A stretch of 64,000 nucleotides of DNA from Streptomyces sp. NBC_00224. GTDB lineage: Bacteria > Actinomycetota > Actinomycetes > Streptomycetales > Streptomycetaceae. Below, piece after piece: positions 28,277 to 64,000 of this stretch. The position numbers and the translations under genes are program-made. Location of the stretch: NCBI RefSeq assembly GCF_041435195.1, contig NZ_CP108106.1:8135001-8199000 (forward strand). The letters are read 5' to 3'. Each line of letters starts with the position of its first letter. Position 1 is the stretch's first letter. The notes beneath the pieces were generated by a model, which was not told where the DNA came from, did no database searches, and saw only the letters and a program-made list of their open reading frames with translations.

Positions 28277-29257
28277 TCAGGCCGCCTCGGGGAAGTGACA
28301 GGCGACCTGGCGTGCCTCGCCCGGCGCGGCGATCCGCAGCACGGGCGCCTCGCTGCGGCACCGTTCCTGTGCCTTGGGGCAGCGGGGGTGGAAGGAGCAG
28401 CCCGGTGGGGGCGCGGCCGGGCTCGGCGGGTCGCCCAGGAGCGTGATGCGCTCGCGGGCCCGCTCGGCGGCCGGGTCGGGCAGCGGGACGGCGGAGAGCA
28501 GTGCGCGGGTGTAGGGGTGGGCCGGGGCTGCGTACACCCGCTCCTTCGCGCCGATCTCCACGATCCGGCCCAGGTACATGACTGCGACCCGGTCGCAGAC
28601 CCGCTTGACCACCGACAGGTCGTGGGCGATGAAGAGGTAGGCCAGCCCCAGTTCCCGCTGCAGGCGTTCCATCAGGTTGACGATCTGGGCCTGGACGGAG
28701 ACGTCGAGGGCCGAGACGGGCTCGTCCGCGATGACGAGCCGGGGCCGGGTGGCCAGCGCGCGGGCGATGCCGATGCGCTGGGCCTGGCCGCCGGAGAACT
28801 CGTGCGGGAAGCGGTCGATCTGCTCGGGTATGAGCCCCACCAGCTCCATCAGCTCGGCGGCCCGCCGACGCGCGTCCGCCGCCGAACTCCCTTGCACAAG
28901 CAGGGGGTCGGAGATGATCCGTGCGACGGTCTGGCGCGGGTTGAGTGAGGAGTGCGGGTCCTGGAAGACCATCTGGATCTCGCGGCGCAGCGGCTTGAGC
29001 TCGCGCTGGGAGAGATGGCTGATGTCGTGGCCGTCGTAGGCGATCGACCCGCTTGAGGGCTCCAGCAGACGCACGATGGTGCGGCCGGTGGTGGACTTGC
29101 CGCAGCCGGACTCGCCGACCAGGCCGAGCGTTTCGCCGGGTGCCACGTCGAAGCTGATGCCGTCGACCGCCCGTACGGGAGCCGAGCCGCGCCGCCGGGC
29201 GGGGTAGACCTTGGTCATGTCCCGTACGGACAGCAGGGGTTGGGTCGCTGTGGTCAT
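28277..29257 (-). CDS. Oligopeptide ABC transporter ATP-binding protein (DppF/OppF type)
   Basis: 326 residues, last gene of a five-gene operon. Walker [13 protein letters not shown]-loop [16 protein letters not shown] signature [15 protein letters not shown] and Walker [15 protein letters not shown] are intact. The C-terminal oligopeptide extension ([17 protein letters not shown]) carries the Cys cluster that binds an iron-sulfur cluster in some Dpp ATPases. Together with the upstream ATPase it forms the hetero-dimeric motor of the importer. The start overlaps the preceding stop by 4 bp (ATGA-type), so translation is coupled. Confidence 0.96.
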
Positions 29258-30312
29258 GAAGGGGCGCCTTCGTACGTGGGGAGGTGGCAGGCGGACGCGT
29301 GGCCGGCGGGCCCCGACAGCAGGGGCAGTTCGGTCTCGCAGCGCAGCCGCTCGCTCGCGGCGGCCGACGCGGCCCGGGAGCAGCGGGGCGCGAACGCGCA
29401 GCCGGGAGCCGGGGTGAGCAGGGAGGGCGGGCTGCCGGGGATGGCCCGCAGCGGTGCGTCGTCGGGGTCGTCGAGCCGGGGCAGTGAGTCGAGCAGGCCG
29501 CGGGTGTAGGGGTGGGCCGGGGCCGCGAACAGGGTGTCCACGGGGGCCTGTTCGACGGCCCGGCCGCCGTACATCACCAGGACCTCGTGGGCGACGCGCG
29601 CCACCACCCCCAGATCGTGGGTGATCATGACGACGGCGAGCCCCCGCTCCTGCTGCAGGCGGGCGATCAGTTCCAGGATCTGGGCCTGCACGGTGACGTC
29701 GAGCGCGGTGGTCGGCTCGTCCGCGATCAGCAGCTCGGGCTCGCAGGCCAGCGCCATCGCTATCATCACGCGCTGGCGCATACCGCCCGAGAACTGGTGC
29801 GGGTACTCGCCCACCCGGCGCCGCGGCTCCGGGATGCCGACCTCGGCGAGCATCTCCACCGCACGTCGGCGGGCCACCGCGCGGCCGGAGCGGAAGTGGA
29901 CGCGGTGGTGTTCGGCGATCTGCTCGCCGACCGTGTAGTAGGGGTGGAGGCTGGAGAGCGGGTCCTGGAAGATCATCGCCATCCGGCGGCCGCGCAGCCG
30001 GTTCAGCTCACGCTCCGTCAGGCCCACCAGCTCCTCGCCGTCGAGCGCGATGGAGCCGGTGACCTGGGCGCCGGTGTGCAGGCCGAGGACGGCCATGGAG
30101 GTGACGGACTTGCCGGAGCCGGACTCTCCCACGATGCCCAGGGTGCGGCCCCGGTGGACGTCGAAGTCGAGGGAGTCGACGGCCCGTACGGGACCGTGCC
30201 GCGTGGGGAAGGTGACGCTCAGGTTCCGCACGGACAGCAGGGGCTCGCGCGCGTCCCGCGGGGGCGCGGCTGGGGGTGCGAGTGCGGGCGAGGTGGGGCG
30301 GGGCGCGTCCAT
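29254..30312 (-). CDS. Oligopeptide ABC transporter ATP-binding protein (DppD/OppD type)
   Basis: 352 residues. Walker A GESGSGKSVTSM, Q-loop FQDPLSSLHPYYT, signature FSGGMRQRVMIAMAL, Walker B LLIADEPTTALDVT and H-loop THD are present, and the C-terminal peptide-family extension has PAPGCAFAPRCSRA. The first 22 residues are Pro/Ala-rich. ATG 30312 overlaps the stop of the upstream permease (TGATG). Second of two ATPases, as required for a DppBCDF-type importer. Confidence 0.96.
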   Translation of the reverse strand: MDAPRPTSPALAPPAAPPRDAREPLLSVRNLSVTFPTRHGPVRAVDSLDFDVHRGRTLGIVGESGSGKSVTSMAVLGLHTGAQVTGSIALDGEELVGLTERELNRLRGRRMAMIFQDPLSSLHPYYTVGEQIAEHHRVHFRSGRAVARRRAVEMLAEVGIPEPRRRVGEYPHQFSGGMRQRVMIAMALACEPELLIADEPTTALDVTVQAQILELIARLQQERGLAVVMITHDLGVVARVAHEVLVMYGGRAVEQAPVDTLFAAPAHPYTRGLLDSLPRLDDPDDAPLRAIPGSPPSLLTPAPGCAFAPRCSRAASAAASERLRCETELPLLSGPAGHASACHLPTYEGAPS

Positions 30313-62215: not shown

Positions 62216-62743
62216 ATGACGTGGAGAGCACCGCAGGTGGAACGTACGACGCAGTTGGGTGGCCTGGGCGTCGAGCCCGAGCGGCGGATGCTGGAGGGCT
62301 GGCTGAACTGGCACCGGGAAACACTGCTGGCCAAATGCGCCGGGCTGGAGCCGGGCGAGTTGGCGCGGGCGACCGTCGAGCCGTCGAACCTCACCCTTCT
62401 CGGTCTGGTGAGGCACATGGCGGAGGTGGAGCGCTGGTGGTTTCGGCGGAGCTTCGCGGGCGAGGAGATCGGCGGGGTGTTCACCGGTTCGGCGGACGGT
62501 GACGAGGGACTCGTCGGTGTCGATCCGGCCGGCGCCGAGCGGGACTTCGCCCTGTTCCGGGCTGAGGTACGAGCGTGCGACGCGGCGGTCGCGGGACACG
62601 GTCTCGACGAGACGTTCGTGTCCACGGGGGGCAAGCCGCTCAGTTTGCGGTGGGTCCATGTGCTGCTGATCCAGGAGTACGCCCGGCACAACGGCCACGC
62701 CGACTTCCTGCGGGAGCGGACCGACGGGGCAACAGGTGACTGA
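62216..62743 (+). CDS. DinB-family (DUF664) metal-binding protein
   Basis: 175 residues. Four-helix bundle typical of DinB/YfiT: ERRMLEGWLNWHRETLLAKCAGL, LGLVRHMAEVERWWFRR (first His) and LLIQEYARHNGHADFLRE (two further His), giving the three-His metal site. Such proteins are thiol-dependent S-transferases or hydrolases, often for mycothiol. GGGTGAGGG is just before the ATG. Not evidently linked to the lanthipeptide genes that follow. Confidence 0.87.
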   Translation: MTWRAPQVERTTQLGGLGVEPERRMLEGWLNWHRETLLAKCAGLEPGELARATVEPSNLTLLGLVRHMAEVERWWFRRSFAGEEIGGVFTGSADGDEGLVGVDPAGAERDFALFRAEVRACDAAVAGHGLDETFVSTGGKPLSLRWVHVLLIQEYARHNGHADFLRERTDGATGD

Positions 62744-63025
62744 CGTACACGATCCCGGGTCGCCTGCCATCGCGGAGCCCGGTCCGAACGTCAAGGCGCA
62801 ATGCAGCCACGCGACTGGATCAAGTTGCGGCCGATAAACCCTTCTTGAGGCACGTGGGGCAGCCCCCTCGCTCGGCGTGGTGCCGTAGACCGTCGCCCCA
62901 CGCAGCTCGATACCGCGCACGAACACCCCAGGACTGTGGCTGGATTAGTCGTCTGACAGGTGTTCGGATCCGGCAATACTCGGGACTGGGCAATCCGTCC
63001 CAATTCCTATGTCCGGAGGCCGCAG
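62744..63025. promoter_or_regulatory. Leader region of the lanthipeptide precursor gene
   Basis: 282 bp with no convincing gene on either strand. CTGACA (62953-62958) and CAATAC (62974-62979), 15 bp apart, are a weak promoter candidate; GGAGG lies 6 nt before the precursor ATG. Its GC is lower than that of the surrounding genes. Confidence 0.35.
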
Positions 63026-63226
63026 ATGCCCCAGACCAGTGTTCCCGCAACCGCCGTGCTCAACGCCTGGCTGTCGGGCGCCGAGAGTGCGTACGGTCAG
63101 TCCAACCCCGCCGGGCCGCTCTACGTCGGCGGCGCCGCTGCCGAGGCCGCGCTCACGGACCCGAGCGACGCCCTCTACGGCTTCTGCTCCAGCCCCAGCG
63201 GGTCGCGCGGCAGCTGGTGTTGCTGA
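63026..63226 (+). CDS. lanA: Class II lanthipeptide precursor peptide (LanA)
   Basis: 66 residues. The leader (1-36, MPQTSVPATAVLNAWLSGAE...) ends near GPLYVGG, a double-Gly-type site, or later near DALYG; the C-terminal part SDALYGFCSSPSGSRGSWCC has three Cys (54, 65, 66) and a run of Ser (47, 55, 56, 58, 60, 63) that could give up to three (methyl)lanthionine rings. The GGAGG site 6 nt upstream is strong. The gene for a LanM-type synthetase starts 236 bp downstream, which supports the assignment. The exact cleavage point and the ring pattern cannot be read from sequence. I do not recognise the core from known lantibiotics. Confidence 0.75.
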   Translation: MPQTSVPATAVLNAWLSGAESAYGQSNPAGPLYVGGAAAEAALTDPSDALYGFCSSPSGSRGSWCC

Positions 63227-63320
63227 TCACCGACGGCTGTTGACCGTCCTGCGGAGTGCGCCTGTCGGGGGCACCGCCGCTGAGTGACGTTCGCAGACAG
63301 GAGAGTACGGACACACGAGT

Positions 63321-63383
63321 GGGGAACCGCTCACCAGGCCACGGCGCGCGTGCCGCGTCCGGAGGCTGGTCGCGCGGTTCCCC
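63321..63383 (+). promoter_or_regulatory. Long hairpin between precursor and LanM genes
   Basis: GGGGAACCGC (63321-63330) pairs perfectly with GCGGTTCCCC (63374-63383), and the inner ACCAG / CTGGT extends the stem. Such partial terminators commonly set a high precursor-to-enzyme ratio in lanthipeptide operons; that role is inferred. Confidence 0.55.
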
Positions 63384-63461
63384 ACGCCCTGTGCAGGCAC
63401 CCAGCACCCTGTGGAGCGCCTCGATGGCGCCAACGTGCGACGGATTGGGGAGGGGCGGACC

Positions 63462-64000
63462 GTGGACGGATCGGCGCCGGACAACAGGGACGAGGCGGAG
63501 TGGTTCGACCGCCCGGTACGTAACATCGCCCGCCCATGGCGGGAGGAGCTGGCCCGGCGGCTGGGCGCCGTGGACGCGCTGGAGAGCGCGGAGCGGGACG
63601 CGGTGCTGGACGCCGGGCACACCGCCCTGATCAGGTCCTTGCACGCGAAGCTGTCCCGTCTGTTCTTGATCGAACTGCACGCACTGCGCATGGCGGAAGG
63701 CGCTGGGCGGCCCGGCGCCGCTGCCGGGGCCGGGCGGGCCGGGCCCGACACCGCGACGTGGGCCGCGTTCATCGAACAGGCCGATGACGAGGGCTATCTC
63801 GACCGGCTGGCCGACCGGTACCCGACCCTCGGGCGGCGGATCGCGTCGGTGGCACGGCTGTCGGTGGCGGCCACGGCCGGTTTCGCCGCACGGCTCGCCT
63901 CGGACCGCGAACTGCTGCGGCCGCTGCTGGGAGCACCCGCGGGGGAGCTACGGGCCGTCGCGTTCGGGGCGGGCGACAGCCACCGCGGCGGTCTGACGGT
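63462..64000 (+). CDS. lanM: Class II lanthipeptide synthetase LanM, N-terminal part (cut by window end)
   Basis: 179 residues of a protein expected to be near 1000. The dehydratase-domain start is visible: a helical N-terminus (WREELARRLGAVDALESAERDAVLDAGHTALIRSL), SRLFLIELHALRMAEG, TWAAFIEQADDEGYLDRLADRYPTLGRRI and the LanM signature GAGDSHRGGLTV. LanM phosphorylates and dehydrates Ser/Thr in the precursor and then closes the rings with its cyclase domain, which is off the window. GGGGAGGGG stands 6 nt before GTG 63462; GTG 63435 and 63411 are in frame but have no such site. Confidence 0.88.
   Translation, partial: MDGSAPDNRDEAEWFDRPVRNIARPWREELARRLGAVDALESAERDAVLDAGHTALIRSLHAKLSRLFLIELHALRMAEGAGRPGAAAGAGRAGPDTATWAAFIEQADDEGYLDRLADRYPTLGRRIASVARLSVAATAGFAARLASDRELLRPLLGAPAGELRAVAFGAGDSHRGGLT

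Follow-up and report, generated by a model that had tools for sequence, protein, structure and literature searches.

A precursor gene and a LanM gene at the end of the window

The window that we analyzed, a stretch of 64,000 nucleotides of Streptomyces sp. NBC_00224 (G000:C1:8135001-8199000, in a genome of 9.18 Mb and three contigs), ends within a lanM gene, and a short gene for a DUF6229 precursor peptide, lanA, lies before it on the same strand. The following features were assigned, in window coordinates:

62953..62980, + strand: promoter-like element of lanA, namely CTGACA (62953-62958), a 16-base spacer and AATACT (62975-62980), by resemblance to consensus only
63015..63019, + strand: ribosome-binding site of lanA, GGAGG, from the sequence and conserved in relatives
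63026..63226, + strand: lanA, DUF6229 precursor of 66 aa, by its PF19740 match (E 5.5e-22) and homologues
63319..63385, + strand: inverted repeat between lanA and lanM, with perfect arms of 12 bp (63319-63330 and 63374-63385) and a 43-base loop, from the sequence
63462..64000, + strand: 5' part of lanM (947 aa; likely start GTG 63462), continuing to L002:11305, that is, window position 66305, by sequence, tblastn and Pfam

The lanA ORF, from ATG 63026 to TGA 63224-63226, encodes the peptide MPQTSVPATAVLNAWLSGAESAYGQSNPAGPLYVGGAAAEAALTDPSDALYGFCSSPSGSRGSWCC, which scores 77.9 bits against PF19740 (DUF6229, Pfam), above the curated cut-off of 25 bits, whereas an NCBIfam search with the same peptide gave no match. 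Its cysteines are confined to positions 54, 65 and 66, and it ends in SPSGSRGSWCC. The first-pass annotation had described just such a 66-residue peptide with three Cys ahead of a LanM, and with six or seven Ser/Thr candidates; both points are borne out, the ORF having seven Ser/Thr from residue 44 on (T44, S47, S55, S56, S58, S60 and S63), the last 13 residues holding five of these. We infer that a leader-like part of about residues 1-50 is followed by a core of about residues 51-66. The Gly-Gly pair at positions 35-36 was also considered as a cleavage site and judged less likely: in 19 aligned peptides E40 is invariant and L43 nearly so, both on the C-terminal side of the pair, and conservation past it favours leader, not core, for that stretch.

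The sequences TCTGAC and ATACTC, read from the consensus line of an alignment of 39 same-core genes (our own included), are conserved at 80% or more upstream of these genes. Of 49 loci, 34 have perfect stems of at least 10 bp in the first 110 nt past lanA, as compared with 12 of 490 shuffled sequences, 1 of 49 stretches of coding DNA and 4 of 48 taken from upstream of lanA; our own inverted repeat lies partly past the 110-nt limit and was found separately. The stem sequences differ between loci, and therefore the stem, rather than its letters, seems to be what is kept. It is possible that the repeat acts as an attenuator or as an mRNA stabilizer, and an attenuator would serve to set LanA above LanM. 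An Rfam search of positions 62500-64000 gave no match.

For LanM, the reading frame is already open at GTG 63411, but we favour GTG 63462 as the start, because GGGGAGG precedes it (63447-63453) and because, for 21 of the 37 loci L049-L085, the tblastn match starts between residues 12 and 18 in longer-frame numbering, residue 18 being GTG 63462. The complete gene was read from the window's own genome, to the right of position 64000. Its product carries the GDSHRGG motif (63972-63992) and two full-length domains: DUF4135, with E 2.7e-92, and LANC_like, with E 5.6e-37. When it is aligned with nine further LanMs linked to DUF6229, the YKPR, D-x-H-x-x-N and D-x-E motifs of the dehydratase and the GFAHG, WCHG and LCHG motifs of the cyclase are present, and K193, D273, H275, N278, D290, E292, H764, C828, C873 and H874 (947-aa numbering; the last four in the cyclase) are kept in it and in the other nine, positions that we take, from work on CylM and LctM, to be catalytic or zinc-ligand sites. 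The cyclase domain that had been expected right of position 64000 is therefore there, as LANC_like in the 947-aa protein, and with full-length domains and the examined positions kept, the downstream protein has its LanM kinase/lyase and cyclase residues. Together with the PF19740 match, these domains agree with the initial call of a class II lanthipeptide precursor and its LanM. The precursors and gene clusters of the class II synthetases LicM2 and CylM differ from the lanA-lanM module. LanM itself is of the same enzyme family as these synthetases (6st5, 5dzt), and its alignment to LicM2 (6st5) spans residues 104-964 in longer-frame numbering, with E 1.7e-49.

Distribution and conservation of the DUF6229 precursors

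Homologues of LanA numbered 32 by protein search and 162 by profile search, and one pattern scan of contigs of GTDB species gave 82 relatives, 80 of which were kept as loci. Their hosts include Streptomyces, Amycolatopsis, Streptacidiphilus, Kitasatospora, Embleya, Catenulispora, Myxococcota and Pseudomonadota, among others; among the matches listed, the closest relatives are those of S. melanogenes and Streptomyces sp. ERV7. DUF6229 was found in 23 of 394 genomes sampled from the same bacterial family and in 6 of 394 sampled from the class, our own genome being counted in both. A search of the source genome gave no second DUF6229 match beyond lanA, and phage records gave no match. Relatives also occur on two multi-megabase plasmid records of Embleya (NZ_CP108785.1 and NZ_CP108777.1), with no annotated feature under the match, and as a tandem pair of DUF6229 peptides in a genome of another family (G447:C14:322516-322929).

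NCBI names these relatives 'DUF6229 family protein', and in UniRef one entry has a name that opens with 'Mersacidin/lichenicidin family type 2'. Papers of 2022 and 2024 have presented DUF6229 peptides as precursors of class II lanthipeptides (PMC9576775, PMC11451712). The earlier study describes a precursor (rhodanocin) that its own LanM modified in E. coli and whose rings were determined by NMR, and it distinguishes at least two ring groups in the family (PMC9576775). It also describes LanII-56 of Streptomyces sp. NRRL S-350, with three rings, which might share the core type of LanA (PMC9576775). The later one reports that 21 of 27 unique class II precursors of Lysobacter are annotated DUF6229, sorts the precursors into six groups that presumably differ in ring pattern, and terms them uncharacterised; DUF6229 precursors are thus common to Lysobacter and to our locus, but the cores differ (PMC11451712). 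Since DUF6229 peptides have already been published as class II precursors, the locus is an uncharacterised member of a known precursor family. Neither our core strings nor PF19740 were found in the literature searched, nor was a characterized product with this core, in line with the remark that the core matched no familiar lantibiotic. To our knowledge, no product of the CSSP core type, that of LanA, has been described. The cluster had been called unrecognised, which stands for the core but not for the family, named by NCBI and published in 2022 and 2024.

A LanM match follows lanA on the same strand in 77 of the 80 related loci (tblastn); L104 and L108 end at contig ends, and L110 has no LanM match in the available DNA. 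At two other loci, L092 and L115, the LanM matches come in four and three pieces, respectively, and the gene may be broken or misassembled. With regard to selection, the last 13 codons of the 39 same-core genes occur in 29 DNA variants but only 8 peptide variants, and lanA has pairwise dN of 0.007-0.104 against dS of 0.108-0.629 (34 relatives of equal length). Judged from these comparisons, the lanA core is nearly invariant and under purifying selection. Given the PF19740 score, the LanM that follows in 77 of 80 loci and the low dN relative to dS, the lanA-lanM pair is not a chance association.

Core types and predicted rings

To describe the cores we used 188 distinct proteins, for which 120 of the 162 profile matches were taken, and which gave 136 distinct 22-residue tails. 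Among tails from the matches listed, 95 are of type A, built around C-S-x-[C/P]-[ST]-[GA]-[SC]-x4-C-C, 32 are of type B, C-G-[TS]-x-C-[ST]-x-S-x4-C-C, and nine are neither, two of the latter (P0029 and P0032) having ends that look out of frame. The sorting rule demands the CC end, Ser/Thr at position 5 and Ser/Cys at position 7, so that constancy at these positions is built in. All 95 type A tails among the matches listed have Ser2 of the core, and Ser at core position 10 is constant in the 39 same-core genes.

Rhodanocin, from Dyella sp. 333MFSha ('LanII'), derives like our locus from a DUF6229 precursor and a LanM, and its reported rings are Thr6-Cys11, Cys8-Ser14 and Thr12-Cys23, with Thr18 as dehydrobutyrine (PMC9576775). 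When compared through these published ring positions, its Thr6-x-Cys8-x-x-Cys11-Thr12-x-Ser14 fits the type A arrangement T(-1)-x-C1-x-x-C4-[ST]5-x-S7, whereas LanA has Gly52 and Pro57 in place of the Thr and the second Cys, and a Cys-Cys end, with Cys1, Ser5 and Ser7 kept (PMC9576775). LanA therefore lacks the half-core T-x-C-x-x-C-[ST]-x-S of the rhodanocin subgroup; its LanM is 40% identical to that of L124, the sole Dyella locus in the set. Closer to LanA are the CSSC-type DUF6229 peptides of other Streptomyces and of Kitasatospora (L087-L099), with the same leader and LanMs 52-55% identical, but these keep Thr(-1) and Cys4 and hence have four Cys, as against three in LanA.

In the type A tails of the matches listed, 57 have both Ser/Thr(-1) and Cys4 and 31, LanA among them, have neither; Cys4 stands alone in seven and Ser/Thr in none; in six of those seven, a Ser/Thr lies one residue to either side. 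Fisher's test for this association gives p of about 1e-18 with kinship ignored, 30 of the 31 double losses carrying CSSP. We therefore turned to a tree of 43 of 81 LanMs (our own and those of the 80 loci; 68 had a single open frame of at least 850 aa with CHG), from which 25 CSSP-type rows were omitted as near-duplicates. In this tree the LanM of Streptacidiphilus pinicola, whose core is AFCSSPTGSYHSYCC, groups with the CSSC-type enzymes, apart from the main CSSP group, and a single CSSP clade is rejected (p-AU 0.013, in a test chosen after the tree was seen). Because of this placement, the paired change of Thr and Cys4 probably happened twice, or else lanA was exchanged. Mapped on the tree, Cys4 changes twice and Ser/Thr(-1) five times, and in three of the five independent contrasts for Ser/Thr(-1) Cys4 is unchanged; the sign test is not significant, and with these numbers cannot reach 0.05. 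The sequences fit a joint loss of both partners of one ring, a reading that draws on two events.

Family membership, linkage to LanM, intact motifs, purifying selection and the lack of a recurrent neighbour (see below) are read from sequence; the modification itself, ring order, cleavage site, export and function we infer, as follows. First, LanM, whose gene lies 235 nt downstream, would bind the DUF6229 leader of LanA. Second, within the core, GFCSSPSGSRGSWCC, it would phosphorylate and then eliminate Ser residues, and the LanC-like domain of LanM would add the three Cys onto the resulting dehydroalanines, with up to three rings predicted by analogy. Third, by transfer from rhodanocin, one ring would join Cys54 and Ser60, with the Cys on the N-terminal side, a second would run from Ser58 to Cys65 or Cys66, and the remaining Cys would close a third with Ser63 or with Ser55/56; the first rhodanocin ring, from the Thr two before Cys1 to Cys4, would be missing. 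A small C-terminal ring is suggested by the constant Ser10 together with the second terminal Cys. Cys1 and Ser7 do not co-vary, Wenjunlia without Cys1 keeping Ser7 and some Corallococcus having Cys7 along with Cys1, which counts against a simple transfer of the whole rhodanocin pattern, and we hold the ring order obtained in this way as tentative, its being wrong seeming to us somewhat the likelier outcome. As for the Corallococcus cores of L101, L103 and L104, such as CSACTGCADAHCC, they have Cys for Ser7, five Cys in all and few Ser/Thr, and therefore perhaps not all of their Cys are in thioether rings.

A two-gene module and its possible roles

When the 80 related loci were searched for eleven genes at and around the pair, LanM was found in 76 at E 1e-10. 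On the downstream side, the FAD monooxygenase and the HAD phosphatase were found in S. melanogenes and ERV7, the former also with one weak match elsewhere; on the upstream side, the methyltransferase and SRPBCC genes were found in S. melanogenes alone. The LysE and MFS genes had no match in the 80 loci, and the remaining neighbours had scattered single matches, in at most one locus each (names were assigned by eye, except for methyltransferase and MST, which come from Pfam). An all-versus-all comparison of ORFs outside lanA-lanM in 38 CSSP loci likewise showed no neighbour in more than five. ORFs of at least 180 aa and of at least 220 aa were inspected by eye over 26 kb beyond the window, and neither a LanT nor an immunity gene, both of which had been anticipated right of position 64000, was recognized near the pair, nor any protease or exporter, a result that also draws on up to 14 ORFs from each of 17 representative related loci. 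Homologues of the ABC exporters of other DUF6229 clades were found beside lanM in 8 of 10 type B loci and 3 of 23 remaining non-CSSP loci, but in none of 36 CSSP loci, all with at least 5 kb downstream. In the source genome, the only exporter-like matches near the pair are ABC genes 33 kb upstream (window 28526-30237, - strand; 26-32% identity), which are probably unrelated to it. In the five loci scanned (L105, L111, L122, L123 and L127), the ABC exporters beside lanM, of the kind found with many type B pairs, have no C39 domain, and therefore leader removal in the type B loci seems to be by another protease.

With no LanT or immunity gene near, no recurrent neighbour and no exporter homologue, the module appears to consist of lanA and lanM alone, rather than being the edge of a larger cluster as first proposed. 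We consider that the locus is very probably a minimal class II lanthipeptide pair. What is newly described is this two-gene module, its near-invariant core and the loss of both partners of the first ring of rhodanocin. The pair could instead be the decayed remnant of a larger cluster that lost its transporter and protease, for which the exporters of the type B and other non-CSSP loci provide a precedent; yet 36 of 36 CSSP loci lack the exporter, even though purifying selection acts on lanA and LanM keeps its motifs, which makes decay very improbable.

For the minimal pair, leader removal and export would depend on host or distant functions, neither being recognizably encoded nearby. A C39 search of the whole genome gave a strong match 6.3 Mb away, in a long ORF (G000:C1:1883310), and a weak match 4.4 Mb away, in a frame of 189 aa; no C39 peptidase-ABC protein lies in the cluster, as it would in a LanT-type (C39) lantibiotic cluster. 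The presence of these two matches in the same genome leaves room for a secreted antibiotic (lantibiotic) exported and freed of its leader in trans, for instance by the C39 peptidase-ABC protein 6.3 Mb away, and an AspN-cut rhodanocin core is reported to inhibit K. pneumoniae at 126 μM, a weak effect (PMC9576775). Nevertheless, the strong C39 gene adjoins a different GG-leader peptide, LahT150 is described as not cutting rhodanocin despite a possible GG motif (PMC9576775), and the residues after GG35-36 of LanA are conserved as in a leader rather than a core. Moreover, no immunity gene was recognized near the pair, and a core near-invariant between species is unlike the product of an arms race. 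An antibiotic is thus plausible, if somewhat short of probable. We entertain with more reserve the idea that Streptomyces has conserved the peptide as a signal or as a surface-active, morphogen-like molecule, not as a weapon. This would agree with the 8 distinct 13-residue cores against 29 DNA variants in 39 genes and dN far below dS, and with the persistence of the pair as its surroundings change (no neighbour in more than 5 of 38 loci), but the patchy occurrence, with matches in 23 of the 394 genomes sampled from the family, is unlike that of a core developmental gene.

Whatever its role, the minimal pair, with two genes in about 3.3 kb, offers a small and testable system for the evolution of ring patterns, in which, within one leader and LanM family, paired changes of Thr and Cys seem to have removed a complete ring. 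It also raises the questions of how a lanthipeptide matures without a recognized dedicated protease or exporter, and why its core hardly varies between species.

The strong C39 match lies at L146:4068-10306 (+), at about 1.88 Mb of C1, beside the GG-leader peptide MNITPQVETREISDADLDNVSGG..., after which come ORFs of 268 aa, 757 aa (the one with the C39 match) and 952 aa; the group looks like a peptide-export system of its own. The source genome also has one further LanM dehydratase match, far from lanA (G000:C1:271284-272423, - strand). The gene calls listed around it have a third-position GC of 0.78-0.93, as compared with 0.84-0.97 at L146, and this DNA may have been acquired.

Relatives with Cys-free repeat cores

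Four of the 25 DUF6229 matches from the search of genomes of the bacterial family are peptides of 167-276 aa in which the DUF6229 leader precedes Cys-free Thr/Glu repeats, namely, L045:9488-10291 (-), L046:9312-10139 (-), L047:9950-10450 (+) and L048:9616-10116 (-). The repeats are VTTEALxDxx in L045 and L047, FVTIEDA in L048 and ITIEEPS in L046, whose sole Cys is in the leader, and the units vary at synonymous sites. A LanM follows each of these precursor genes (4/4). Its dehydratase residues are kept, but the Glu before the Asn is changed; the zinc ligands Cys, Cys and His are also kept, the His of GFAHG is lost in three of four, and WCHG has become WCRG in all four. From these sequences, the repeat-core loci look like a dehydration-only LanM system.

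A protein search with a Cys-free repeat peptide gave no match, and a genome search with one repeat peptide gave matches in 12 of 293 genomes, mostly to ordinary DUF6229 leaders. No dehydration-only system of this kind was found in the literature searched. A mining study of 2020 describes discarding ORFs without Cys or longer than 120 aa (PMC7268733), and mining rules that need Cys and at most 120 residues may hide a class of LanM substrates. These Cys-free relatives may be more unusual than the lanA-lanM pair itself. It is tempting to speculate that the exporter-less pair, in many Streptomyces, makes a near-invariant, three-ring lanthipeptide serving as a conserved signal or surface peptide and not as a weapon, and that the DUF6229 leader is a general tag for recruiting LanM, also used on Cys-free Thr/Glu repeats that would only be dehydrated, by a LanM with a degraded cyclase; taken as a whole, we regard this proposal as unlikely.

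After lanM, L046, L047 and L048 share a like order of aminotransferase-like, MFS-like and further enzyme genes, the identities in L046 being given by likeness of ORF starts. Pfam searches with eight neighbours identified class III aminotransferases in L045 and L047, MFS proteins in L047 and L048, ATP-grasp amino-acid ligases (LAL_C2) in L047 and L048, a P450 in L048 and an AMP-binding protein in L047.
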